This document shows positions 1 to 12,623 of a stretch of 12,623 nt of DNA, piece by piece; positions within the stretch are counted from its first letter, which is position 1; each line of letters starts with the position of its first letter. The stretch lies in NCBI GenBank assembly GCA_021129445.1, contig JAJOLG010000034.1:1-12623 (forward strand). Reading direction: 5' to 3'. Both the position numbers and the translations under genes were made by a program. The notes beneath the pieces were generated by a model that was not told where the DNA came from, did not search any database, and saw only the letters and a list, made by a program, of their open reading frames with translations. The stretch is from Candidatus Altimarinota bacterium. GTDB taxonomy: Bacteria; Patescibacteriota; Gracilibacteria; GCA-2401425; JAJOLG01.

Positions 1-26
1 GTTACCTGCAAGGCGAAGAAAGATAA

Positions 27-51
27 ACAGTAGAACATAAATTGAAAATAT
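27..51. repeat. Short flank repeat, left copy (ACAGT...TAAATTGAAAATAT)
   Basis: ACAGT at 27-31 is followed by TAAATTGAAAATAT at 38-51. The same two words occur in the same orientation in the right flank (12422-12426 and 12429-12442), with a spacer of 6 nt here and 2 nt there. A 14-nt AT-rich identity alone is weak, but together with the other shared words of the two flanks it supports a common repeat family. Confidence 0.45.
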
Positions 52-75
52 TGAACCGAGAATTTAAACATATAA

Positions 76-105
76 TTGGAAAATTGACTTACATAAATAA
101 TTTTG
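76..105 (+). promoter_or_regulatory. Candidate Bacteroidota-type promoter of the operon
   Basis: TAATTTTG at 98-105 fits the -7 consensus TAnnTTTG used by the primary sigma factor of Bacteroidota. A TTG at 76-78 lies 19 nt upstream, the spacing expected for the -33 element. This puts a transcript start near 110-114 and leaves a 5' leader of about 150 nt before the first start codon at 264. The leader would contain the hairpin at 142-204. No other TAnnTTTG match was noticed between here and the gene. The motif is short and the region AT-rich, so a chance match remains possible. Confidence 0.5.
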
Positions 106-119
106 TTTTTGCCGACCCG
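106..119. repeat. Short flank repeat, left copy (TTTTTGCCGACCCG)
   Basis: This 14-nt word recurs without mismatch and in the same orientation at 12393-12406. It is GC-rich in an otherwise AT-rich window, so the match is unlikely to be chance. It directly follows the candidate -7 box. Confidence 0.6.
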
Positions 120-141
120 CATAAAAGAGAAGCCCACGCAC

Positions 142-204
142 ATTGCACACATTTGCAAATCGCACTGGCTGACCCACAAACCGGAATTTACAAATGAGTG
201 CAAT
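142..204. repeat. Imperfect hairpin element, left flank copy
   Basis: The arms are 142-160 and 186-204. ATTGCACACATTTGCAAAT pairs with the second arm at 17 of 19 positions, leaving a 25-nt loop (161-185). The core CACATTTGCAAATCGCAC (148-165) recurs with one mismatch in 18 at 12322-12339, where it is part of an equivalent hairpin with the same loop length. Here the element would lie in the 5' leader of the operon mRNA. It could act as RNA structure, as a folded single-strand recombination site, or as a remnant of a small non-autonomous element. The sequence does not decide between these. Confidence 0.7.
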
Positions 205-263
205 TTACCCGACACACACGAAAGAATGAAACATCAATTAAGAATTTAATAAATAAACTTACA

Positions 264-1577
264 ATGAAATATTTTTGGAGACTTTGTACAATTGTAATTC
301 TATTTGGGTTAACAATCCTATCAGGTTGCACTGGTTGTAATAACCGTAGCGAAAGATTGAATGAAACAAAAACTAAAGAAAAATCAAATACTGAGGAACA
401 GAATACATTGAATAATGATTCTGACAATTCAGAAAGAAAAATTAGTAAAGCAGTCTTTTTTATAGAAAACTCTGAAAGTATGTTTGGCTATGTAAGTGGC
501 TTTACAGAATACGTTGATGTTATTTCTGAATTAGCAGAAAAGCCAAAGTTTGCAGAAGAAAAAACACAGCGTGAGTTCTATTTTATTAATGGTGGAGATA
601 TTCTTAAAGTAACACCAATAGGAAACAATCCTGCTGTTTTGAAAAAAAAATTAAACACAACTGGATTTAATTGTGGTGATAAAACAAAAAGCAACCTAAA
701 TTCAATGTTTCAAAAAGCACTTGAGAAAGCAAGGAAAGATACAATATCTATATTAATATCTGATGCAATATATGACTTGGGAAAACCAAATGCACCAATG
801 AATGCATTAGCAACAGAGGGTAGAGAGACTCGAAGCAGATTTATTGAAAGACTTGGTGATGGAGATTTACAAACAATAATGATTAAATTGTATTCTCATT
901 TTGATGGAAACTATTTCCCTGTTAATGGTGGAAGAATACCAATAAAACAGACACGACCCTATTATATTTGGATTTTTGGTGAAACGGAATTGTTAAATAG
1001 ATATTTCCCCGAAGAATATATCAAGTCATTAAAAGGGTATGCAGATATGGCAAGATTTATAAAGTTTGATGAATTGAATATTCCTTATCAGGCAGTATCT
1101 CAAAATATAATAGGACGTTTTAAGTTTGATAAGATAAGTAAGAACAAACTAAAGGATGTAAAATCTGACAGAAATGGTCAAGGTTTTCAATTTTCGTTTG
1201 CAACAGATTTTTCATCTCTACCTTATTCTGATTCATATTTTCAAACAACTAATAATTATTCATGTAGTGATGACAATTATGCAGTAACATCTGTTACAAA
1301 AATTAAGAAAAAGGCTTATGAAATAACATCATTTATTCCCACTCATATGATAACGGCTTCTACTCAAAACAATCCTTATTGCGAGTTAAACATATCGCTT
1401 AAAAATGTTGTGCCAATATGGATTGTCAATACAAATTCCGATGATGAATCAAACATTAAAAGTGACACAACACAAACCTTTGGCTTTAAATTTCTAACGA
1501 ATGCAATAAGCGAGGCCTATTCATATAAGAACAAAGAAAAGAATATTACAAATTTCACATTTGAAATAATTAAATAA
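264..1577 (+). CDS. vWA-like lipoprotein
   Basis: This is a probable outer- or inner-membrane lipoprotein of 437 residues with a von Willebrand A-like domain, a fold used for metal-dependent protein contacts. The signal peptide and lipobox end in LSGC, with the lipidated Cys at 22, followed by a polar Asn/Glu/Lys-rich linker to about residue 60. The vWA domain opens at KAVFFIENSESMFGY: ExSxS at 68-72 stands where the MIDAS motif DxSxS is expected. A second MIDAS-type Asp (167) follows the strand ISILISDAIYD. An in-frame GTG at 198 would add 22 residues, but it lies inside the flank hairpin and puts a hydrophilic stretch ahead of the signal peptide, so ATG 264 was chosen. It is the first gene of the operon, 7 nt before the next. 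The vWA assignment rests on motif order and is moderately secure; the exact function is unknown. Confidence 0.75.
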   Translation: MKYFWRLCTIVILFGLTILSGCTGCNNRSERLNETKTKEKSNTEEQNTLNNDSDNSERKISKAVFFIENSESMFGYVSGFTEYVDVISELAEKPKFAEEKTQREFYFINGGDILKVTPIGNNPAVLKKKLNTTGFNCGDKTKSNLNSMFQKALEKARKDTISILISDAIYDLGKPNAPMNALATEGRETRSRFIERLGDGDLQTIMIKLYSHFDGNYFPVNGGRIPIKQTRPYYIWIFGETELLNRYFPEEYIKSLKGYADMARFIKFDELNIPYQAVSQNIIGRFKFDKISKNKLKDVKSDRNGQGFQFSFATDFSSLPYSDSYFQTTNNYSCSDDNYAVTSVTKIKKKAYEITSFIPTHMITASTQNNPYCELNISLKNVVPIWIVNTNSDDESNIKSDTTQTFGFKFLTNAISEAYSYKNKEKNITNFTFEIIK

Positions 1578-1584
1578 ACATATT

Positions 1585-2031
1585 ATGAAAGATATTTTTG
1601 CAACAATTTATGAAACGTGGTTTCAATTGTATGATTCTCAATTCTCATTGATTTTCGACACACTTTATAATGCTGGTTACATAATGTTTGGACTTTCGTT
1701 CATTCTAATACCCCTAATTTTATGGCTTCTTTTCTATTATGTGTGGAATTATCCTTATGGAAAACTTTGGCACTGGTTAGTATGGCTAATAATTACATTT
1801 TTAATTGTGGCAGGTTCAACTTTTGGTATTGCAAACAATGAAATATTTGTTTCAGTTAATCAAGCCCTTATTGATGCATTAGCCGACCCTGAATCGGGTT
1901 ATGAACAGTTTGCAAAAACACTACCACTAAAATATGCCTTGTTTAATGGTATATTAACAATTGGTGTAGGCATTATTTACAGCTTGGTATTAAAGCAGTT
2001 TAGTAAAATTCAAATTCATTTACCTTTTTAA
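1585..2031 (+). CDS. Small three-helix membrane protein, unknown function
   Basis: The protein has 148 residues and I do not recognise its family. Three hydrophobic segments are visible at about 31-53, 63-83 and 115-136. An amphipathic N-terminus is rich in aromatic residues (EFW/Y pattern), and a polar loop at 84-112 contains DPESGYEQF. There is no signal peptide with a cleavage site and no known catalytic motif. It sits between the vWA lipoprotein and the tubulin-like gene, 7 and 10 nt away, so it is probably the inner-membrane partner of one of them. Its start codon and that of the next gene share the same AT-rich context ACATATTATG (1578-1587 and 2035-2044), with no Shine-Dalgarno sequence. 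Confidence 0.8.
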   Translation: MKDIFATIYETWFQLYDSQFSLIFDTLYNAGYIMFGLSFILIPLILWLLFYYVWNYPYGKLWHWLVWLIITFLIVAGSTFGIANNEIFVSVNQALIDALADPESGYEQFAKTLPLKYALFNGILTIGVGIIYSLVLKQFSKIQIHLPF

Positions 2032-2041
2032 TTGACATATT

Positions 2042-3532
2042 ATGGCAAAGAAATTATATATTTTCGGAATTGGTGGTACTGGTTCAAGAGTTTTAAAAGC
2101 ATTCACAATGTTGCTTGCATCTGGTTGTAAACTTGAAAACGACTTTGATACTGTAATACCAATAATTATTGACCCCGACACAAGTAACGGTGACTTAAAT
2201 CGCACCAAAGATATTCTGCGACTGTATCAGGAAATAAGAAATCAAATCCAGCAACCAGATGATTTTTATAAACAAGAAATAAAAACAATAAATGAATTAG
2301 CGAATAATTCGGCAGTAATAAATCCTGAATATTTCCAGTTTAAACTGGAAGGAGTTGAACAAAGCACTTTTGGGCAATATATTGGTTTTGATAGTCAAAG
2401 CCATGATTTTAAGAAATCAAAAGATGACAAAAATTTCATTCGTTTGCTTTATTCAGACAGCAACTTAAAATCTGATTTAAATGTTGGATTTAAAGGAAAT
2501 CCTAATATGGGTTCTATTGTATTAAATCAATTTACAAATTCGGAGAATTTCAGAAAATTTGGTCAAACTTTTAATGATGGAGATGCAGTTTTTATAATCA
2601 ATTCTATATTTGGAGGAACGGGAGCAGCAGGTTTTCCACTTTTATTAAAAAACCTTAGAGGAAATGACCAATTACCACACCACGAAAAAATTAAGGATTC
2701 ACAAATCGGGGGAATAACATATTTGCCATATTTTGCTCTAAATAAGCAAGACGAGGTTAATTCAGAATCATTTGAAGAAAAGGCAAAAATTGCACTTGAT
2801 TATTACAACAGAACAATTATAGACAAGAATCAAATCAATACTTTATATTTTATTGGCAATAAAGGAAATACTAAACACTTTGAATATTCTGTTGGAGGAA
2901 AAGAACAAAAGAATGATGCACATTTCCTTGAAATGGCAGGAGCTTTAGCAATTCTTGATTTTTGCAAGAATATTAATAAAATTTCTAATACTACACAAAT
3001 CAAAGAGTTTGGAATTGAAAACACAACAGAAAATATCAGTTTTAATGACTTAAATATAGAAAATAACAAAGAGGTTTCAGCCCCATTAACAAAATTCAAA
3101 CTCTACACAGAGTATCTAAAAAAAGGATTGCCAAAGTCATTGAATGTTTCAAGGTGGACGAAAAGCAATATTAAGTTAGTGAAAGGAAGTAAAAACTCAA
3201 TACTTGATAAAAACTATTTTAACAGTTCTGAATACAAAATACAAATTGAAGCATTTAATAAACATTTTGAGGATTGGCTTAAAGAAATGGGAGAAAATAA
3301 ACCAGCATTTAATCCTTATAATATTGTTGATTGGGACAATGCACTAAATCTATTAAAAGGCAATGAACCAAAAGGCAATAAAAGTTTTAAGGTGCTGGAT
3401 AAAGAAAACTGTAAGCTAATAGATGACAGTAGTATTAAATCATCTATAGAAAAAAAGCATACGACATTGATAAAGTTATTTAGTAAATCAACCGAAAATG
3501 TATTAAATAAACGTAACCTTTTAATAAGATAA
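2042..3532 (+). CDS. Tubulin/FtsZ-like GTPase family protein
   Basis: This is a cytoplasmic protein of 496 residues with two glycine-rich signatures of the tubulin superfamily. Near the N-terminus, GIGGTGSRV (9-17) follows the first beta strand, as in the first nucleotide loop of FtsZ. The tubulin signature loop SIFGGTGAAG (188-197) resembles GGGTGTG. A strand IIIDPDTSNGD at 41-51 would be the ribose/Asp region. No clear NxDxxD catalytic T7 loop was found, so polymer-stimulated GTP hydrolysis is uncertain. The protein is longer than FtsZ (about 380 residues) and has a lysine-rich C-terminal part. This is the pattern of the Tubulin_2-type families (PF13809) found beside vWA and OmpA-family genes. 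A Rossmann-type NAD enzyme was considered, but the second loop argues against it. It ends 3 nt before the ATPase gene, so the two are probably translated together. Confidence 0.75.
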   Translation: MAKKLYIFGIGGTGSRVLKAFTMLLASGCKLENDFDTVIPIIIDPDTSNGDLNRTKDILRLYQEIRNQIQQPDDFYKQEIKTINELANNSAVINPEYFQFKLEGVEQSTFGQYIGFDSQSHDFKKSKDDKNFIRLLYSDSNLKSDLNVGFKGNPNMGSIVLNQFTNSENFRKFGQTFNDGDAVFIINSIFGGTGAAGFPLLLKNLRGNDQLPHHEKIKDSQIGGITYLPYFALNKQDEVNSESFEEKAKIALDYYNRTIIDKNQINTLYFIGNKGNTKHFEYSVGGKEQKNDAHFLEMAGALAILDFCKNINKISNTTQIKEFGIENTTENISFNDLNIENNKEVSAPLTKFKLYTEYLKKGLPKSLNVSRWTKSNIKLVKGSKNSILDKNYFNSSEYKIQIEAFNKHFEDWLKEMGENKPAFNPYNIVDWDNALNLLKGNEPKGNKSFKVLDKENCKLIDDSSIKSSIEKKHTTLIKLFSKSTENVLNKRNLLIR

Positions 3533-3535
3533 ATC

Positions 3536-6500
3536 ATGGCAAAAGTATATAGACTTCACGAAGGACAAGATGGTACTGGTTGGTTTTCAAGTAAGCCCAT
3601 CGGCACAGAAGAATTAAAAACAATTAAAACGGAAGGCAAAGATGTTGCGACATCAATCCCAAGTCCATTTGCAAGAGTAGATTTGGTAAAGTCAGCTTTT
3701 AAATGGGTTGCTGAGAATGGTATTGATGGAACAACAGCCCATCATAAATTAGTTTCTGACGCATTAGATGTAGCGCAACTATTCTATGCTTCACAAAAGT
3801 TTGCGAGTAAAATCCAGATTGTAGCTTGGAACCCAAAAGAAAGGTTAAAGGATTTGGTTGAGAATGGAAATACACGACATTCAAAATTTGCTGCTACTCT
3901 TCGATTATTTTGGAATCAAGATAGTGTGCCAAATAATGAAAGAGGGAATAAAGTTCTGTACAACTTTGAATCTGTAAACAGATTGTATTTTCTGCTGAAC
4001 AAGGAATCTAATACTATTATTGGAGGAACATCCCCTGCAACCCTATTTTTTGCTTCGCCTGATGTTAAAAAAGCAACAGCAAACCTAAATATTAGAATAG
4101 GTCAGGACAAGTTATTCGATGATGAATATGCATCTTTAGCAAAGAGAGAAACTTCATTTGTTGAATATATTTACACACTTGCAAAACAACCAAAATTTGC
4201 TGACCATTTTCCAGAGGTATTCTCTTATTTGGAAGAAATCAGAGAAAATATCCTTAGTGCAGAACTTCGACAAAAAGTTTCAAATTTTGATGCAGAAGAA
4301 ATTAATGCTTTTACACCTTGTCCTGTACTTGATAATGAAAATGACCCCTGCGAAATACTTGGAATTCCATTGGGCATTCAAACAGTTAATGGTAATGAAA
4401 TTGAAGACGAAAGTGATTTTGTTGTAAAAAGTGATTATCAAATAACAGGTGTAAAACCGCTGATATTGCCATATCATAAATTTTCTAAAAAGTGGACTTA
4501 TACAACTAAAGGAATAATATGGGATGAGAATACAAAGATTCCAGTAAAAAATACATTTAGTTCAAAAGATTCAAAACTACCAATCCAACATGATAGTTAT
4601 TATTGGTTAACTATTGGCAACTTTTTTGAGGATAAAATTGTTGAACTTCCTTATCCAATAGATGATATAAAATTTAAAACTTGCGGGTCAAAAAACCATT
4701 TATTACCACTTACCCCAACATTCTTTAAATATTTTAGTGCAGAAAAGGTTACTGAATATTTAAAAATTGAAGAAAAATCAGGCGGATTAATTCAGGTTGA
4801 ATTAAACATTCCGGTAAAAGGTGGAAAAATAACATTTAAAAAGAATTATTCCACAGCAGATAGAAATATTGAGAAGTTTGAAATTCACTTAGCTGTATTT
4901 CCATTCCTTAAAGCAGATAATTCAAGCATTACATATACATTAGGTCTTTTGGATGACAGACTTGAAAAGAATGATAACCTTTTACTTAGTTGTTATAACA
5001 AAGGAAAAGAATTGGAATTGAAAAGTCCTATTACAAGAAACCCCGGAGAAGGAGGAGAACTCAAAAGTATATATTATAAAAGCAGTGAGCAATTCGACTT
5101 ATTAAAACTTGGCAATCAATCTGCAAAAGGATTTATTGTTCCAATTCTCAAGCAATGTTCTGGTAATAATCAAATAAATTTTGCGATTGATTTTGGCACA
5201 ACAAATACTCATATCGAATATAAATATGGTGATAACGATTCCACTTCATTTGACAATACTACTTCTACACCGCTATGGCAATCATTAATCAAAAGAAATG
5301 AAAAAGGAATAGACCCTGAATATTTTGAAAATGAAATTACTTTTGAACAGGAGATGTTGCCTTATTCATTTTCTAAAGGCAATGAACAGCTTCAATTTCC
5401 ATTAAGGACTGCACTGGTTCATAATCGACTAATAAACTTTAATGAGAATATTGATATTATTAGGCAAGTAAACAACTATTTATTACTTGAAAACAGAAAT
5501 GTTCCAAATTATTTAGAATTGAATACACAAATTAAATGGAGCAACTATGCAGATACTGTAGATGAAAAGAAAGTTGAAAGTTTTATTGAATTTCTCGCAA
5601 CTTTAGTGTTTTACAAAACACTTCTTTTGGGTGGCAATACAAATAATACAACAATTACATGGTTTTATCCTGTCAGTATGGACGAAGGCGAATTAGGTGT
5701 GTTTTTTAAACTTTGGAAACGAGTCTATAAAAAAGTATTTAATCAAGAAGCAACAGACGATAAATTAAAAGGAATACCTGAAAGTATTGCCCCTTATATG
5801 TTTTACAAATCATCTGTTGAAGGACTTAGTCTTTCTATTGATATTGGTGGTGGTTCATCTGATATTGCTGTTTTTGATGAAGATGAAGACAAAGCAAAGC
5901 TAATATCATCATTCAAATTTGCCGGGAACGCAATTTTTGGAGATGGATACCCATCGAACGAATATCAAAACAATTCGGATAGGAATGGATTTGTAAGAAC
6001 GTTTAAGGAAGCATCCTTTAATGCCATTAAAGGAGATAAACAAAAAGAAGGAATATTAAATAACATTTTAAATGTTAGAAAAAACTCATCAGACTTTAGT
6101 AGTTACTTATTTGCCTTAGAGAAAGATAGCTCAATCAACTTTAGTTATTCAAGGTTATTGGAAAAAGACAAGAGATTAAAACTTACTCATTTTGTATTTT
6201 ATGGTGCAATTGCATATTATTCGGCTATCCTGCTAAAAAAATCAGGAATTGGTATTCCAAAATACATTTTGCTAAGTGGTACTGCATCAAAATCTGCTTC
6301 AATACTCGATTCAACAGATGATTTTAGCAACCTTTCTGCAATGTTTAAATTTATATTTGAAAAGGTTAATGGTAAAAAATCAGATAATGGGATTTCTATC
6401 AGACTATCGCAAATCCCCAAAGAGGTTACATGTAAAGGTGCTTTAAAAGCTAATATCTCTGAAAGCATAAAAAAAGCCCCGGTAAAATTTTGGATTGGCG

Positions 6501-6871
6501 GAATGCAAGATGATAAATGGGGTGCAGCTTTCGATAAAGAATTAAATATTCAAGAAACACCTAAATATGGAGATGTTAATGATTCTTCAAAATCTGAAAT
6601 TGAAAAAGCAATAAAGGATTTTTATTCAATTCTTGATGAGTATATTAATACTATCAGACTTGAATCTAAATTTATTATTGAACCAAGTGCATATCAAGTG
6701 TTTAAGGATACAAGGGAAAAAGGTATAAAAGATTATCTAATTAGAGGAATAAAGGCATATTACAAGAAAAACGATGTGTACATTGAAGAGTCGCTTTTCT
6801 TTTATCCGTTAATCGGGATATTAAATAAACTTTCGTATGCACTTTCTGAAAAACAGAATAATGATGAATAA
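3536..6871 (+). CDS. Large protein with C-terminal Hsp70/actin-like ATPase domain
   Basis: This is a cytoplasmic protein of 1111 residues with no signal peptide or membrane segment. Residues 1 to about 540 form a region I cannot assign; it contains SIPSPFARVDLVKSAF (41-56) and IGGTSPATLFFASPD (161-175). From about 545 the actin/Hsp70/hexokinase fold begins: phosphate-1 motif FAIDFGTTNTH (D552), phosphate-2 motif IDIGGGSSDIAVF (D769) and adenosine motif LLSGTASKSA (G915). The motifs come in the right order, and the wide gap between the first two is filled by a large insert. Near the end, IGGMQDDKWGAAF follows. The protein therefore probably binds ATP and changes shape or assembles. It is distantly reminiscent of large SrfB-type proteins, but I am not sure of this. 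It sits directly after the tubulin-like gene and overlaps the next gene by 11 nt. Confidence 0.8.
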   Translation: MAKVYRLHEGQDGTGWFSSKPIGTEELKTIKTEGKDVATSIPSPFARVDLVKSAFKWVAENGIDGTTAHHKLVSDALDVAQLFYASQKFASKIQIVAWNPKERLKDLVENGNTRHSKFAATLRLFWNQDSVPNNERGNKVLYNFESVNRLYFLLNKESNTIIGGTSPATLFFASPDVKKATANLNIRIGQDKLFDDEYASLAKRETSFVEYIYTLAKQPKFADHFPEVFSYLEEIRENILSAELRQKVSNFDAEEINAFTPCPVLDNENDPCEILGIPLGIQTVNGNEIEDESDFVVKSDYQITGVKPLILPYHKFSKKWTYTTKGIIWDENTKIPVKNTFSSKDSKLPIQHDSYYWLTIGNFFEDKIVELPYPIDDIKFKTCGSKNHLLPLTPTFFKYFSAEKVTEYLKIEEKSGGLIQVELNIPVKGGKITFKKNYSTADRNIEKFEIHLAVFPFLKADNSSITYTLGLLDDRLEKNDNLLLSCYNKGKELELKSPITRNPGEGGELKSIYYKSSEQFDLLKLGNQSAKGFIVPILKQCSGNNQINFAIDFGTTNTHIEYKYGDNDSTSFDNTTSTPLWQSLIKRNEKGIDPEYFENEITFEQEMLPYSFSKGNEQLQFPLRTALVHNRLINFNENIDIIRQVNNYLLLENRNVPNYLELNTQIKWSNYADTVDEKKVESFIEFLATLVFYKTLLLGGNTNNTTITWFYPVSMDEGELGVFFKLWKRVYKKVFNQEATDDKLKGIPESIAPYMFYKSSVEGLSLSIDIGGGSSDIAVFDEDEDKAKLISSFKFAGNAIFGDGYPSNEYQNNSDRNGFVRTFKEASFNAIKGDKQKEGILNNILNVRKNSSDFSSYLFALEKDSSINFSYSRLLEKDKRLKLTHFVFYGAIAYYSAILLKKSGIGIPKYILLSGTASKSASILDSTDDFSNLSAMFKFIFEKVNGKKSDNGISIRLSQIPKEVTCKGALKANISESIKKAPVKFWIGGMQDDKWGAAFDKELNIQETPKYGDVNDSSKSEIEKAIKDFYSILDEYINTIRLESKFIIEPSAYQVFKDTREKGIKDYLIRGIKAYYKKNDVYIEESLFFYPLIGILNKLSYALSEKQNNDE

Positions 6872-8168
6872 AAACGGTTTTATAGTCTTAGTTGTACTAC
6901 TTCTTGGTTTTGTAAATACACTTTCTGCACAGCCCCAAATAAATGATTCAACAGAAGCTTATAATTATTGGGCACATCGTGGAATTATTGAAATGGTTTA
7001 TGCTTATATGAATGATTATATTGAAACTGTTGGAGAAGATAAAGCAAAAAGTGAAATTGTCGGTAGAGATAAATATGAGGAGAATTATATTTCAGAAATA
7101 AATAAAAAAGAACTTGTAAGTTTTGACATAATATCAAGTTTTTTAAAAAGTAATAGTTGGGGCGGAGCTGAGAAAAATCTTTTTCAACCTTTAGTAAAAA
7201 AATATAAGAATAAGGCAGAACTTGATTTAAACTTTTTTTTAGCTGAGAAGCCTGGCAGTAATGACTTAATTACAGTTATACCTGGTCGAAACAATAAAAA
7301 TGTTAATTGGAATAAAAAGCAGCAGGAAATTATTGAAAATTACAGGAGTGAACTAAAGGCCCTTTCCAAAAAACCAACTGCCAAAGAAAAGGTTGAACCT
7401 GAAATACAAGAGCCTGAAACAAACAATCACTCAAATTGGATGCAATGGATTATATATCTATCAGTTTTTATTTTAGGAATCTTTATTGGCGGTTGGTTGG
7501 TTTTTATTGTTTCAAAAAACAGGATTTATTCAATCCTTGCCAACGAGAAAGATGAATACCTACGTGATGTTAGGTCAAGTAATAAAAGTTTCATATTTAA
7601 GTATGTGGGTTTATTCTATATCTTAAAAAATCGTAAAGATGAATATAAAACAAAGTCCGAAGATACTCAGAGTAATAATTCTAAATCAAATTCTCATTTA
7701 AATGAAGTTGAAAAACTTAAACGAGAAAAATCAGAATTAAACGAGAAAATATCTCGAATGGAGCAAACTGCCCAGAAAGCTGATGAAAAGCCCGAAACTC
7801 AAAACACCCAAGAATGGGAAATCAAACAACCAAAAACAGTAACTCGAAAATTATTTTTCAGTATGCCTGAAAGTGATGGTCGTTTTATAGTTGACAATGG
7901 TGAATCATCAAATGATGGGCGAAAATATTTCAGAATAGAATATAATGAAGGCTCTGAAACAGGTGAACTCTTTTATATCTCTGGAGACAGAGACAAAAGA
8001 GCAATTAACAGATTGGAATCATATTTAAAACCAGCGTGTGATATTGAGAATATTGAAAATGCGGATTCAGCTAATAACATAGAATTTATTAAATCGGGAA
8101 AAGTTGTTTTAATAAACGATAGTTGGATAATTGATTCTGATAATAAAGCTAAAATAAAACTACTTTGA
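6861..8168 (+). CDS. Single-pass membrane protein, outside domain plus cytoplasmic coiled coil and tail domain
   Basis: The protein has 435 residues and an unrecognised family. A cleavable signal peptide (1-23, ending LSA-Q) precedes a charged domain (24-192) that would lie in the periplasm. One membrane helix spans about 195-217 (IIYLSVFILGIFIGGWLVFIV). A Lys/Ser-rich linker, a short coiled coil at about 280-305 and a compact C-terminal domain (about 328-435, beginning RKLFFSMPESDGRF) follow in the cytoplasm. The topology suggests a link between outside events and the cytoplasmic NTPases. Start: an upstream ATG at 6837 would put polar residues before the signal peptide. The paired ATGs at 6861 and 6864, overlapping the previous stop codon, fit better. 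The reading frame overlaps the ATPase gene by 11 nt, which suggests coupled translation. Confidence 0.8.
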   Translation: MMNKNGFIVLVVLLLGFVNTLSAQPQINDSTEAYNYWAHRGIIEMVYAYMNDYIETVGEDKAKSEIVGRDKYEENYISEINKKELVSFDIISSFLKSNSWGGAEKNLFQPLVKKYKNKAELDLNFFLAEKPGSNDLITVIPGRNNKNVNWNKKQQEIIENYRSELKALSKKPTAKEKVEPEIQEPETNNHSNWMQWIIYLSVFILGIFIGGWLVFIVSKNRIYSILANEKDEYLRDVRSSNKSFIFKYVGLFYILKNRKDEYKTKSEDTQSNNSKSNSHLNEVEKLKREKSELNEKISRMEQTAQKADEKPETQNTQEWEIKQPKTVTRKLFFSMPESDGRFIVDNGESSNDGRKYFRIEYNEGSETGELFYISGDRDKRAINRLESYLKPACDIENIENADSANNIEFIKSGKVVLINDSWIIDSDNKAKIKLL

Positions 8169-8170
8169 AA

Positions 8171-9877
8171 ATGATATTGTTACAAATAGCTTCAAATACA
8201 CAGGTTGAAAACCTGAATTTATTTGGCACAGACTTTTGGTTTTACGTTGAAATAGTAATAATTACTGTAATAGTAATAATGCAACTTAAAACTTTTGATA
8301 ATGTCAGAAGAAGAATTATTGAATTACGTCAAATTTTCGATTATAGCTTCACCATTAAATATGGTTTTATTGAAAAGAAAAAACTTGGAAAAATAGAAGG
8401 CGATTCAGAAGAGATTCAGTACGAAGATGGAACTGAGGAAGAATCACTCTCTGAAATAGTTGGCGATGATATTGCAAAACTGACACTTATTGAAACTGAA
8501 GGTGAGAACGCAATTATCACAAAAATAAAGAACGCAATTAATACCTATTTAATTAACAACTATGGTGCAGCGGTTAATTTTAGTATCATAAAGGATATTA
8601 TTGATAGAGAAGTAGAAGTAAAAGATGAGGAAATAACTCAGACAATTACAATCCCACTCTATTTGGGTCTTGCAGCCACAATGGTTGGAATTATCTTAGG
8701 TCTATTTTCTATGCCCAATTTAGATGGAGATGGCTTTTCACAAGGTGTAAATGCACTTATCAATGGTGTTAAAATAGCTATGATAGCAAGTCTGTCAGGT
8801 TTGTTTTTTACAACATTACTATCATCTACGTTCTATAAAAATGCAAAAAGCAAAGTATTAAAAGAGAAGAACGAACAACTTTCATATTTGCAGGCAAAGT
8901 TATTACCCGAGCTTGTTAAAGCAGAAGATACAGGCGTATCAGGTTTGAAAGCTAGCTTAGACAGGTTTGCAAGGGTAGCTACAACTATTTCTGATAATGT
9001 TCTTATTGCGGCAAACCAGACTGGCGAGAATCTTGTTTTACAACAGGAAGTTATGGATAAAGTCGAGAATATGAAAGTTCTAAAAGTATCTAAATGGAAC
9101 TTAGAATTGTTTGAGAAACTTGATATGAATATGGATGCCTTTAATAAGTTTTCTACTTATTTATCCAATATGGAGAAGATTTCTTCGAACCTTCTCGAAT
9201 TTGCGGCACGCACCTCTAGTATTGACCAAGTAATTAAAGGAATTGATACTACATTGAGCGATTCAAAACAATTAACCAAATTCCTAACTGCTCATTTTGA
9301 TAAGATTGAAGATGCAGGTAATGCTGCATTAAAATCTGTTGGTATTGCTGAATCACACTTTGAAGATGCAATTGAAAGTTTAAAAACAAGAACAGATGAA
9401 ATGATAAATCAACTGTATAAGAGTGCTGGTAATCATGAAACTAAATTAGAAGACATTTATAAAGAAATCAAAGAGAATTTAAATAATATAACCTCTGAAT
9501 ATATTAGTTCGTTTTCTGAAGCTTATTCTAATTCCATTCCAAAGTTTGAACAATTAGATAATTTAGGTTTGTTACCCGAGATAAAAGAAGAATTCTTATT
9601 AAAAGCTGCTGATTTTCAAAATGAATCAGGCTTGCGGTCTGAGACACTAATTAATATAGCAAATGAGTTAGATGCATCTTTAAAATCTGTACAAAACAAA
9701 TTAAATAGTCAAGCAATAATAAGCAAACTCGAATCTATTGATGATAAATTAAAAAGAAGTACAAACAAGAATGCTAACCACAATAATTCACAATCTACGG
9801 CAATTAGAAAATCAGTCAACACGGATTTGAAAGATAATTCTTTAAGTATTGGTAAAGTGATAAAAAAATTGTTTTAA
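8171..9877 (+). CDS. MotA/TolQ/ExbB-type channel protein with long helical tail (ZorA-like)
   Basis: The protein has 568 residues. Membrane helix 1 is at 22-39. A charged cytoplasmic segment of about 115 residues follows, then helix 2 (158-182), whose PLYLGLAATMVGIILGL resembles the TolQ/ExbB consensus LLGLLGTVxGI, and helix 3 (about 200-220). A polar Thr in helix 2 (170) and the Thr pair in helix 3 (214-215) correspond to the pore-lining threonines of this family. Residues 221-568 form a mostly helical, low-aromatic tail of about 350 residues, far longer than in TolQ or MotA, as in ZorA of Zorya. With the MotB-like protein it should form a proton-driven rotary unit in the inner membrane. A TTG at 8165 inside the previous gene is possible, but ATG 8171, two nt after that gene's stop, is preferred. 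Confidence 0.85.
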   Translation: MILLQIASNTQVENLNLFGTDFWFYVEIVIITVIVIMQLKTFDNVRRRIIELRQIFDYSFTIKYGFIEKKKLGKIEGDSEEIQYEDGTEEESLSEIVGDDIAKLTLIETEGENAIITKIKNAINTYLINNYGAAVNFSIIKDIIDREVEVKDEEITQTITIPLYLGLAATMVGIILGLFSMPNLDGDGFSQGVNALINGVKIAMIASLSGLFFTTLLSSTFYKNAKSKVLKEKNEQLSYLQAKLLPELVKAEDTGVSGLKASLDRFARVATTISDNVLIAANQTGENLVLQQEVMDKVENMKVLKVSKWNLELFEKLDMNMDAFNKFSTYLSNMEKISSNLLEFAARTSSIDQVIKGIDTTLSDSKQLTKFLTAHFDKIEDAGNAALKSVGIAESHFEDAIESLKTRTDEMINQLYKSAGNHETKLEDIYKEIKENLNNITSEYISSFSEAYSNSIPKFEQLDNLGLLPEIKEEFLLKAADFQNESGLRSETLINIANELDASLKSVQNKLNSQAIISKLESIDDKLKRSTNKNANHNNSQSTAIRKSVNTDLKDNSLSIGKVIKKLF

Positions 9878-9889
9878 TAATCGCGTAAG

Positions 9890-10390
9890 ATGAGAAATGA
9901 AATATATCTTATTAATAACTATAAAAGGAGCTTAATTACACTTCTTACTATACCTATAATCTTAATTGGTTGTATTTATATTTCCTATGGTGAAATTTTT
10001 GATGGAATTATTTTACAACAGGCTAACCCTTTGAAATTTTATCAATTACACGTTCATTTAGCAGTTTTTAGTGGTAATCTTTTCCAAGTTCCATTAAAGA
10101 ATTTACCAAATATTACTGCCTCTATTGGTTATTATTCAGTAATTGCCGTTTACATTTTATTTTCTGCTTGGGTAGTGCTTTTTGCAACTTCTTCTTACTT
10201 GCAACTTTCTCAAAAAACTGGTTCAAAATTTATTATACTCGTGGAATCAGCCTTGATATTGGCAATATATATCATTTCGATTAGTCCGGATTTAAACTTA
10301 TGGCTTTCCTTGATTGGTTATATAATTATCTCAATTGTTCTTGTGATGCTACTATTGTATTGGTTGTATGAAATTAAAACTAAGCAATGA
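9890..10390 (+). CDS. Four-helix membrane protein between the two motor genes, unknown function
   Basis: The protein has 166 residues with hydrophobic helices at about 14-33, 82-104, 114-132 and 136-159. A loop at 34-80 would lie outside, and a short charged C-terminus ends in KTKQ. No family was recognised and no catalytic motif is visible. It starts 12 nt after the ZorA-like gene. Its stop overlaps the start of the ZorB-like gene in the sequence ATGA, so its translation is tied to that of the motor pair. In ordinary Zorya loci the two motor genes are adjacent; here this gene separates them, which makes it a candidate third subunit of the motor. Confidence 0.8.
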   Translation: MRNEIYLINNYKRSLITLLTIPIILIGCIYISYGEIFDGIILQQANPLKFYQLHVHLAVFSGNLFQVPLKNLPNITASIGYYSVIAVYILFSAWVVLFATSSYLQLSQKTGSKFIILVESALILAIYIISISPDLNLWLSLIGYIIISIVLVMLLLYWLYEIKTKQ

Positions 10391-11007
10391 AAAATAATAA
10401 CATATTCTGGATAAGTTACTCTGATTTAATGACAAGCCTGTTTTTTGTTATGTTGGTGCTTTTTGTTGTAACTGTTGGCTATTTGAAATCTATTGTTGAT
10501 GCAACAAATGAACAACTGGAAAAAATTCAGGAACTACAAACTGCTGTCCAAGAATTACCGGTCGAATACTTCCAATATCAACCACAATATAAAAGATTTA
10601 AATTAAACAAACAGATTCAGTTTGATAAAGGAATGTCAGAGATAAAAACAGATTATAATTCTTATTTAATTGAAGTAGGCAATTCTATTACTAAACTTAT
10701 AGATGGCCTCAATAATAATGAAGAGTACAAAAAGTTTGACATTAAATATTTAGTAGTTATTGAGGGTATGGCTTCGAAAGATAATTTTTCATTAAATTAT
10801 GAATTGAGTTACGAAAGAGCATTATCCTTATATAAATTTTGGAAAACAAACGGAATATCATTTGACCCTCAAACTTGTGAAATACAAATTTCTGGTAGTG
10901 GGATTGAAGGTATAAGAGAATATTCTGGCAATCAAGAATATAAAAATCAACAATTTTTAATTCATATAATTCCTAAAATGGGTAAAATAATTGGAGCCAA
11001 TGAGTGA
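10387..11007 (+). CDS. MotB/OmpA-type stator protein (ZorB-like)
   Basis: The protein has 206 residues: a short cytoplasmic N-terminus, one membrane helix (14-34) and an OmpA-type C-terminal domain (about 75-197) in the periplasm. Asp13 in ISYSDLMTSLFF sits at the helix entry, exactly where MotB and ZorB carry the proton-binding Asp. The OmpA motif is recognisable at 125-145 (IEGMASKDNF, then NYELSYERA). The Asp of the usual G-H-T/A-D is replaced, while the Arg (144) of the RA pair is kept, so peptidoglycan binding may be altered. A Gln/Glu-rich stalk (40-58) links helix and domain. The start ATG overlaps the previous stop by 4 nt. The assignment to the MotB/OmpA superfamily is secure; ZorB-like is the best but not the only option. 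Confidence 0.85.
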   Translation: MKNNNIFWISYSDLMTSLFFVMLVLFVVTVGYLKSIVDATNEQLEKIQELQTAVQELPVEYFQYQPQYKRFKLNKQIQFDKGMSEIKTDYNSYLIEVGNSITKLIDGLNNNEEYKKFDIKYLVVIEGMASKDNFSLNYELSYERALSLYKFWKTNGISFDPQTCEIQISGSGIEGIREYSGNQEYKNQQFLIHIIPKMGKIIGANE

Positions 11008-11812
11008 TAAAATAAAAACATACATTCTTATTAGAAATATTTTCTTAATGCTTATTTTAATAGGTTCATCTTATATCTTTTATGGCTGTTCTGGCTGTTC
11101 CCAGTCAGGTATAAGAGATAACCAACAAAAAAGGAACTATTCAAATACTGATAGTCCTACAAGAAACAAAAGGTCAGTAGATGCTTCCAAAGAAAAGGAA
11201 CCGAAAGAAAGGAATTCCATTCCTGACAATACGAATGCTATCCCCTTAAATACTCTTTATAAGAAATACAAACCTTCAGTTTTTATGATTTATACTTCTG
11301 ATGGTGTTGATGTTGATGGTTATCAAGGCACAGGATTTTTTATTTCAAAAACTGGTATTGCAGTAAGTAATTACCATGTATTTAAAGGTACTTCACAAGG
11401 TTTGGAAGTAATTGAAACTTCTGATGGTCACAAATTGAATATTGAAAAAGTTTTAAGCAAAAGCGATGAAAATGATTTCATAATATTTAAAGTTAGGTTA
11501 TCAGGTTACAACATAAATAATCCAATTCCCATTTCTTTTCAAGAACCTCAGATTGGTGAGGATGTTTTTGCTATTGGCAATCCTCGTGGATTAGAAAGCA
11601 CTTTGTCTAAAGGAATTATTTCAGGTTTTAGAGAAAAAAGGAACTATATCCAAACAACAACAGAGATAACTCATGGAAGTAGTGGGGGACCATTGTTAAA
11701 TATGAGAGGAGAAGTTGTTGGTATTACAACCGCAGGTTTAGGTGAAGCAAATCTTAATTTTGCAATAAATATTAAACAATTACCATTGCATAAATATAAT
11801 TTAGGAAACTAA
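11000..11812 (+). CDS. Lipoprotein trypsin-like serine protease (DegP/HtrA-type catalytic domain)
   Basis: The protein has 270 residues: an N-terminal hydrophobic segment (8-28) ending in FYGC with a probable lipidated Cys30, a polar linker to about 80, then a chymotrypsin-fold protease domain. The catalytic triad is visible: His126 in VSNYHVF, Asp159 in SDENDFIIFKV and Ser228 in THGSSGGPLLN. GTGFFIS (110-116) and AIGNPRGLES (191-200) are typical of HtrA enzymes. The chain ends soon after the barrel, so there is no PDZ domain, unlike DegP or DegS. It should cut proteins outside the inner membrane, anchored by lipid. A TTG at 10991 would add three residues; ATG 11000 inside the end of the previous gene is preferred. 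The lipobox is loose (Phe at -3), so a plain membrane anchor is an alternative. Confidence 0.9.
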   Translation: MSDKIKTYILIRNIFLMLILIGSSYIFYGCSGCSQSGIRDNQQKRNYSNTDSPTRNKRSVDASKEKEPKERNSIPDNTNAIPLNTLYKKYKPSVFMIYTSDGVDVDGYQGTGFFISKTGIAVSNYHVFKGTSQGLEVIETSDGHKLNIEKVLSKSDENDFIIFKVRLSGYNINNPIPISFQEPQIGEDVFAIGNPRGLESTLSKGIISGFREKRNYIQTTTEITHGSSGGPLLNMRGEVVGITTAGLGEANLNFAINIKQLPLHKYNLGN

Positions 11813-11815
11813 TTA

Positions 11816-12304
11816 ATGAAACATTGTCTTTTAAAATATTTAAGTTTTGCATTCTTACTTTTATTTTTTTCGTGTAATTCGAGAAGTGATAGAGATAGTC
11901 TTGCAGGGTATATGTCTATCAAGAAATTTGTAGATGGTGATACTTTTTGGGTGGATGATGGTTCTGAAAAAGGTTTAAAGATTCGATTAATTGGAGTCAA
12001 CACACCTGAAACTGTTCATCCTCAAAAGCCAGTTGAATATTATGGAAAGGAAGCATCTAATTATGTAAAAAAGGTATTAATGAACAAAAAGGTTCGCTTG
12101 GAATTTGATGTTAGTAAACAAGATAGGTATGGGCGAACTCTTGCATATGTTTTTTTAAATGATGGAACATTTTTAAATGCAGATTTAATTGAAAACGGTT
12201 ATGGCCAAGTTATGACTGTGCCACCGAATGTAAAGTATTCAGAAGAATTTTTAGAATTAGAAAGAAAGGCACGTGAAAATAATATTGGACTATGGAAAGA
12301 ATAG
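11816..12304 (+). CDS. Lipoprotein thermonuclease (SNase family)
   Basis: The protein has 162 residues: a signal peptide with lipobox FFSC (Cys20), then a staphylococcal-nuclease fold from about 33. Residues matching the staphylococcal enzyme are D42 (D21, in VDGDTF), R57 (R35), E65 (E43, in NTPET) and R107 (R87, in DRYGR). The calcium ligand D40 is replaced by Asn62; from memory NTPE is common in bacterial relatives and does not prove loss of activity. The enzyme should cut DNA and RNA outside the cytoplasm, anchored to a membrane. It starts 3 nt after the protease gene and is the last gene of the operon. It could be an effector that meets incoming DNA, a scavenging enzyme, or passenger cargo of the island. 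Confidence 0.9.
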   Translation: MKHCLLKYLSFAFLLLFFSCNSRSDRDSLAGYMSIKKFVDGDTFWVDDGSEKGLKIRLIGVNTPETVHPQKPVEYYGKEASNYVKKVLMNKKVRLEFDVSKQDRYGRTLAYVFLNDGTFLNADLIENGYGQVMTVPPNVKYSEEFLELERKARENNIGLWKE

Positions 12305-12313
12305 CCTACACAC

Positions 12314-12380
12314 CAGCCAAGCACATTTGCAATTCGCACCAGCCAACGCTAAAGCCAAAAATTGCAAAAGAGCTTGTCTG
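12314..12380. repeat. Imperfect hairpin element, right flank copy
   Basis: The arms 12314-12334 and 12360-12380 pair at 18 of 21 positions; mismatches lie at 12317, 12323 and 12325. The inner 9 bp (TTTGCAATT with AATTGCAAA) are perfect, and the loop is 25 nt (12335-12359). The loop matches the loop of the left copy at 15 of 25 positions, beginning CGCAC in both. It lies 9 nt after the last stop codon. A run of six T follows at 12392-12397, 11 nt beyond the stem, so it might also stop transcription, but the layout is not that of a classical terminator. Confidence 0.7.
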
Positions 12381-12392
12381 TCTGCCACCGCT

Positions 12393-12406
12393 TTTTTGCC
12401 GACCCG
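12393..12406. repeat. Short flank repeat, right copy (TTTTTGCCGACCCG)
   Basis: This is identical over 14 nt, in the same orientation, to 106-119. Here it follows the hairpin element, while on the left it precedes it. Confidence 0.6.
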
Positions 12407-12421
12407 AAAAACAAAATTAGG

Positions 12422-12442
12422 ACAGTGCTAAATTGAAAATAT
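12422..12442. repeat. Short flank repeat, right copy (ACAGT...TAAATTGAAAATAT)
   Basis: ACAGT (12422-12426) and TAAATTGAAAATAT (12429-12442) match 27-31 and 38-51 in the left flank. Because it lies 15 nt after the 14-nt word, the right-hand hairpin and the two words form a compact unit of about 130 nt. Confidence 0.45.
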
Positions 12443-12478
12443 AATGACAGAAATGAAGTAAGCCCAGCAGGTAACAAA

Positions 12479-12586
12479 GGCTATACGTAATTTGGGCAAT
12501 GTGCTGATATTAAAGTTTATAGCATTAAATAAAATTAGTTGTAAATTGAAAGTTAATCGTTTCAAAATCCCAAACTACGCATAGCC
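12479..12586. repeat. Long imperfect inverted repeat
   Basis: GGCTATACGTAATTTGGG (12479-12496) is the reverse complement of 12569-12586 with two differences in 18. The arms enclose 72 nt of AT-rich DNA without a gene. The arms are followed by CAACCGTTATGTGTG. Candidate roles are a folded recombination site, the ends of a small non-autonomous mobile element, or a transcription stop for a neighbouring unit. No flanking target duplication was recognised. Confidence 0.65.
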
Positions 12587-12623
12587 CAACCGTTATGTGT
12601 GAATTTTGAATAACTCAATAAAA

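Follow-up and report, generated by a model that had tools for sequence, protein, structure and literature searches.

A Bacteroidota gene locus pairing tubulin-like and actin/Hsp70-type proteins with a MotA/MotB-type motor: a candidate envelope-spanning cytoskeletal machine

The ten genes of the DNA analyzed here (the window, 12,623 nt, positions 1–12623) bring together a tubulin-family protein, an ATPase domain of the actin/Hsp70 (ASKHA) type and a channel–stator pair related to MotA/MotB and ZorA/ZorB. On the strength of gene content, domain types, a gene order conserved between distant genomes and the co-occurrence of motor and core genes, all of which are directly observed, we consider an ion-powered cytoskeletal machine that spans the envelope more likely than an anti-phage system, and we give the former a probability of about one half.

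Layout of the locus and origin of the contig

Ten open reading frames on one strand fill positions 264–12304, with intergenic spacings from gene 1 to gene 10 of +7, +10, +3, −11, −4, +12, −4, −17, and +3 nt; the overlap between genes 8 and 9 is −17, or −8 if gene 9 starts at the ATG at 11000. These coordinates agree with a first-pass annotation, made from the sequence alone, that described ten co-directional genes with overlaps or gaps of at most 12 nt. No tRNA or Rfam matches were found in the window. Its features are:

Gene 1: 264..1577, + strand; lipoprotein with an LSGC lipobox and a vWA-like fold at residues ~56–262
Gene 2: 1585..2031, + strand; small protein with three transmembrane (TM) segments
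Gene 3: 2042..3532, + strand; tubulin/FtsZ-family GTPase-like protein
Gene 4: 3536..6871, + strand; 1,111 aa, with an ASKHA (actin/Hsp70-type) ATPase domain at ~545–1000
Gene 5: 6861..8168, + strand; signal peptide, TM segment (193–220), coiled coil and conserved C-terminal domain
Gene 6: 8165..9877, + strand; MotA/ZorA-type channel subunit; alternative start ATG at 8171
Gene 7: 9890..10390, + strand; multi-TM protein of unknown kind
Gene 8: 10387..11007, + strand; MotB/ZorB-type stator with an OmpA-like peptidoglycan-binding domain
Gene 9: 10991..11812, + strand; HtrA/DegP-like serine protease lipoprotein; alternative start ATG at 11000; accessory
Gene 10: 11816..12304, + strand; thermonuclease (SNase) lipoprotein; accessory
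3′ flank: 12297..12485, no strand; 94% identity with the related locus L003, the similarity ending at 12485

TM segments were predicted for genes 2, 5, 6, 7, and 8, and lipobox signals were read from the sequence for genes 1, 9, and 10, by which eight of the ten products are predicted to reside at the envelope; the exceptions are the two large soluble proteins encoded by genes 3 and 4.

The window (G000:C21) is filed under a 673-kb genome, but it uses the standard code and has 31% GC, versus code 25 only and 25% GC in six sampled contigs of that genome. The tetranucleotide correlation of the window with these six contigs is ~0.2, compared with 0.7–0.85 among the six and 0.78 between the window and L003, a locus from a Bacteroidetes metagenome-assembled genome. 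L003 is the nearest relative of the window, with 91% identity in gene 4 and with genes 3–10 in the same order, and gene 4 was found in none of 98 other genomes of the class to which the filed genome belongs. Because of this mismatch in code, composition and kinship, we take the window to be, almost certainly, a mis-binned Bacteroidota contig, and on the same grounds we rejected the idea of an operon native to the small-genome, code 25 host. The mis-binning had escaped the first-pass annotation.

Similarity to L003 ends at an imperfect hairpin (~12472–12600) that resembles an integron attC site; its core 14-mer occurs once in the L003 genome and is not a dispersed exact repeat there. Three short motifs (14, 14, and 18 nt) are common to the window flanks at 38–165 and 12322–12442; their strand is the same and their order is mirrored.

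Domain types of the encoded proteins

Pfam alone was clear only for the protease and the nuclease, and the other genes were identified by means of family profiles. The window protein of gene 3 by itself matches the Pfam tubulin model at 4.4e-5 and, in a second comparison, at 5.9e-5, below the curated cut-off. Seven of 12 members of its family match Tubulin_2 (best 2.2e-10), the SIFGGTG motif is invariant in the family, and the GGTG loops at residues 11–14 and 191–194 are conserved in the 12 members, which bears out the tubulin-type loop noted at first pass. The ATPase motifs reported for gene 4 are likewise upheld, in this case by the family profile and by fold comparison. No Pfam ASKHA ATPase matched the window protein. 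Among 12 homologs, D552/G554/T555, D769-GGG-D776, and G915/S918 are invariant, within the common motifs D-x-G-T, D-I-G-G-G-x-x-D, and G-x-x-S. When the family profile was compared with the PDB, the matches were almost exclusively to actin, MreB, FtsA, DnaK, and Hsc70 and sat at the phosphate-1 and phosphate-2 positions, with E-values of 0.001 to 1 that are individually weak and collectively consistent. The Foldseek matches listed for gene 4 are also ASKHA folds, although the predicted model is poor (full-length pLDDT 39). Together, the invariant residues, profile and fold matches place phosphate-1, phosphate-2, and adenosine motifs of the ASKHA type in gene 4. To the N-terminal ~540 aa preceding this domain we assign no fold, the confidence of the full-length model being that low.

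Genes 6 and 8 resemble a stator-type motor. Gene 6 has three TM segments and a cytoplasmic helical tail of ~350 aa, and gene 8 has a single TM segment with an invariant Asp (D13), followed by an OmpA-like domain. The Pfam MotA and MotB models match weakly (0.046 for gene 8). The nearest PADLOC families are ZorB1 for gene 8 (6.5e-17) and ZorA2 for gene 6 (1.8e-5); the NCBIfam ZorB1 model scores gene 8 at 33 bits against a cut-off of 400, so by these models gene 8 is homologous to ZorB1 and, as judged by NCBIfam, not its ortholog. Positions 5–213 of the gene 8 family profile match a MotB-related chain at 5e-10, and the best solved chains for the pair are the MotA/MotB-related complex (8vvn) and ZorB of the ZorAB complex. 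The MotA/TolQ channel and MotB/OmpA stator motifs seen in the initial reading are thus confirmed by the PADLOC families and PDB chains. Trees of the MotB and MotA proteins were poorly resolved and cannot place the motors of this system as one clade apart from those linked to DUF4433.

The latter come from a similar four-gene cassette in mobile DNA, L050 (5497–9681) and L075 (5517–9639; Parabacteroides distasonis plasmid NZ_OY725823.1), which encodes a ZorA/ZorB-like pair together with two other proteins, one uncharacterized and one carrying the annotation DUF4433 in L075. This cassette is a candidate defense system with a different effector.

None of 11 homologs of gene 1 has a Pfam vWA match. 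The fold predicted for residues 56–262, though modeled with low confidence, found alignment partners almost exclusively among vWA domains, at Z-scores of 6–7 (maximum 7.3, below 8), and the first MIDAS position is Glu (ExSxS) in place of Asp. The model is suggestive of a vWA-fold lipoprotein. The earlier reading of a vWA-like lipoprotein accords with the lipobox and the fold alignment and has no match in Pfam. Homologs of gene 2 were detected at 1e-7 to 1e-44 in the same position of most Bacteroidota loci. The C-terminal domain of gene 5 is probably cytoplasmic, since a Prevotella homolog has no TM segment.

The serine protease and thermonuclease recognized at first pass are both clear in Pfam: gene 9 matches Trypsin_2 at 2.2e-24, with no PDZ domain, and gene 10 matches SNase at 7.9e-29. 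Apart from the window, gene 7 and the protease were found in L003, its 91% relative, and in no other locus; L025 carries, in the position of the protease, a lipoprotein with a similar N-terminus and a retropepsin-type domain. A thermonuclease lipoprotein adjoins the locus also in G458, G611, and G622, in differing orientations; as two of these three have flanking genes in common, they do not count as independent cases. Since nuclease genes of this kind are common in any case (46 of 60 genomes), the signal lies in adjacency and not in presence. As judged from these occurrences, the protease and nuclease are accessories and not fixed members of the locus.

Recurrence, gene order and phyletic pattern

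Genes 1–5 occur in constant order across divergent Bacteroidota. More than 20 mapped loci run in the order vWA-like lipoprotein, small TM protein, tubulin, ASKHA protein and, usually, gene 5; a simple ORF picker missed the small TM gene in L030 and L074. Genes related to 1–4 were also found on cyanobacterial plasmids, as a tubulin and an ASKHA protein with adjoining genes for a small TM protein and a lipoprotein. The core is present on three IMG/VR contigs, and neither gene 3 nor gene 8 had a match in phage records. Among 395 sampled genomes of the phylum, nine (centre included) have gene 4 by BLAST; most genomes also give profile hits to gene 4 with E > 1e-12, but these cover only short stretches of other ASKHA proteins and were set aside. 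A MotB of the present type occurs in six genomes of this sample and adjoins gene 4 in five of them. The sixth hit (L073, 3924–9413) is a decayed copy of the locus with a split tubulin, no ASKHA gene, and MotA and MotB fragments.

In most loci motor genes follow the core: the window, L003, two IMG/VR contigs and the loci from the genera of G265 and G458 have them, and neighbors resembling MotA and MotB also occur in the divergent locus L067. Five loci (L011, L025, L029, L031, and L044) have the core without MotAB, and the motor is therefore not obligatory for the core. The view of all ten genes as a single functional unit consequently survives in part: core genes 1–5 and motor genes 6 and 8 keep their order in distant genomes, whereas gene 7 and the protease are restricted to the window and L003 and the nuclease is a recurrent neighbor in two lineages.

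The association is closest in the genus of G265, where gene 4 (complete or truncated at a contig end) is present in 59 of 61 species and MotB in the same 59. In 55 of these 59 genomes, the two genes lie on one contig, separated by 2.7–4.7 kb, and in the other four they lie on different contigs; a scattering of motor and NTPase genes, which would have spoken against one system, was not found. The remaining two species lack the standard gene 4 and MotB alike. These two carry loci (L065, 6459–13333; L066, 4145–9528) in which a true Hsp70 gene, checked against Pfam in L065, comes after a divergent ASKHA gene; L065 has a tubulin gene as well. A further divergent tubulin/ASKHA pair (L069, 2171–11171) is followed by TerD-domain genes, two of them confirmed by Pfam. 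Sampled species of the G265 genus share neighbors of the locus: L027, L030, and L071 lie next to a nucleotidyltransferase gene and a LemA-like gene, and L063 and L074 next to EF-Ts. This sharing indicates vertical inheritance and a resident role. Elsewhere the locus is rare, being present in 3 of 60 genomes of the G458 genus and in 1 of 57 of the G099 family. The 45 proteins that flank eight relative loci were mostly ordinary; the few defense-type matches comprised an HSDR_N gene in two loci and single proteins matching RtcR-type and DrmD models.

Proposed machine, alternatives and known systems

In the arrangement that we propose from topology and knowledge of the protein families, which underlie its localization, ion coupling, tail contact and remodeling function alike, the tubulin-family protein (gene 3) and the ASKHA ATPase (gene 4) would form a nucleotide-driven, probably polymerizing assembly in the cytoplasm that genes 2 and 5 tie to the inner membrane. 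The channel–motor pair would be anchored to peptidoglycan by the OmpA-like domain of gene 8, and ion flow would turn a pentamer of gene 6, whose long cytoplasmic tail may contact the NTPase assembly. With the vWA-like lipoprotein (gene 1) as a putative partner on the far side, such a machine could remodel the envelope or service it mechanically, whether at the peptidoglycan, the outer membrane or the surface lipoproteins; in some lineages interchangeable lipoprotein hydrolases, such as the protease and nuclease, would be loaded onto it.

We favor this envelope machine on account of the topology, the ion-motor pair, the cytoskeletal NTPases and the resident status of the locus in one genus. Against it weigh the patchy presence outside the G265 genus (3/60 and 1/57), which fits an optional system, the five loci that have the core and no motor, and the inclusion of Zorya defense proteins among the nearest relatives of the motor. 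The main rival, owing to these relatives and the patchy distribution elsewhere, is a Zorya-like anti-phage system in which the motor, on sensing that an injecting phage has perturbed the envelope, would activate the tubulin/ASKHA assembly together with the two lipoproteins, nuclease and protease, so that infection is stopped at the envelope. Motor relatives do occur in mobile DNA with a DUF4433 gene, accompanied in L050 by probable restriction-modification genes, and roles in conflict have been proposed for tubulin/Hsp70/vWA systems (Kaur et al. 2020, PMC7159879). However, the locus is near-universal in one genus and stands beside housekeeping genes, the flanks of its relatives hold mostly ordinary genes, with few defense-type matches, and the nuclease is missing from most loci and, like the protease, is predicted to be an extracytoplasmic lipoprotein and not a cytoplasmic effector. 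With E-values of up to 1 admitted, PADLOC matched none of the ten proteins to ZorC, ZorD, or ZorE. We accordingly depart from the anti-phage leaning of the first-pass annotation and consider this explanation unlikely.

A surface motility or protein export motor resembling GldLM or AglRQS, in which cytoskeletal tracks would guide the cargo that an ion-driven stator moves or exports, is quite improbable. Stator-type motors of 5:2 composition power gliding and secretion elsewhere (PMC11890865, PMC12204202) and the tubulin- and actin-type partners could serve as tracks, but adhesin, secretin-like, and T9SS components were not recognized in the loci, several of which have the core with no motor at all. 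About as improbable is a stress-response or protein-quality-control assembly of the kind proposed for Ter and tubulin/Hsp70 systems, with the ASKHA protein as a chaperone instead of a cytoskeletal ATPase: the divergent relatives adjoining TerD genes (L069) or true Hsp70 (L065 and L066) are deep, distant branches of gene 4, and the branch of the window has neither a TerD nor an Hsp70 gene.

More tentatively, we suggest that the locus may represent a new kind of trans-envelope machine. A stator powered by protons or sodium would drive a cytoskeleton of mixed tubulin and actin families, or be gated by it, and in at least one genus the machine would be a resident and almost universal feature. Both cytoskeletal superfamilies and a rotary stator in one bacterial operon would represent a new coupling of force between cytoskeleton and envelope, and the genus with the locus in 59 of 61 species is a place to test function directly by gene removal. 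In the open-license literature, we found no description of the ASKHA and ZorAB-like combination or of the full gene set.

The closest precedent is a prediction of the same class by Makarova and Koonin 2010 (PMC2875224), in the portion of that paper concerned with FtsZl1, of membrane-remodeling systems that associate it with vWA and OmpA proteins. Their systems, in a set that includes Bacteroides and cyanobacteria, likewise have a Tubulin_2-type protein, there in an operon with a vWA gene (gene 1 would be its putative counterpart), some with OmpA-domain and TM proteins, and the OmpA-family gene has its counterpart in gene 8 (MotB plug and OmpA-like domain). Unlike the window, they are described in that portion with a P-loop GTPase and protein kinases and with no ASKHA ATPase or MotA/ZorA channel; some of the window genes may be among the unnamed families. 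The present locus links this prediction of 2010, still unsolved, with a motor driven by ions and with an ATPase of the actin type. Zorya shares the channel subunit with a long helical tail and the stator with an OmpA-like domain (genes 6 and 8), whereas the present system has no recognized ZorC/D/E effector and has two cytoskeletal NTPases, a putative vWA lipoprotein and, in one genus, a resident chromosomal locus. The GAP1-N2/DO-GTPase conflict systems (Kaur et al. 2020, PMC7159879) also have tubulin-domain genes, in one neighborhood with vWA genes and, in a separate theme, with Hsp70, but are reported mainly from Firmicutes and Actinobacteria; the window has no recognized DO-GTPase, GAP1, or FNIII protein, and Pfam and NCBIfam, searched up to E = 1, matched TRAFAC DO-GTPase or GAP1 in none of its ten proteins. 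The vWA force transducers with TolQ-like motors (PMC12204202) combine a vWA protein with a MotA/TolQ-type motor; theirs are TM-tethered or form a pore helix, whereas the putative vWA protein of the window is a predicted lipoprotein accompanied by a separate MotB-type stator.
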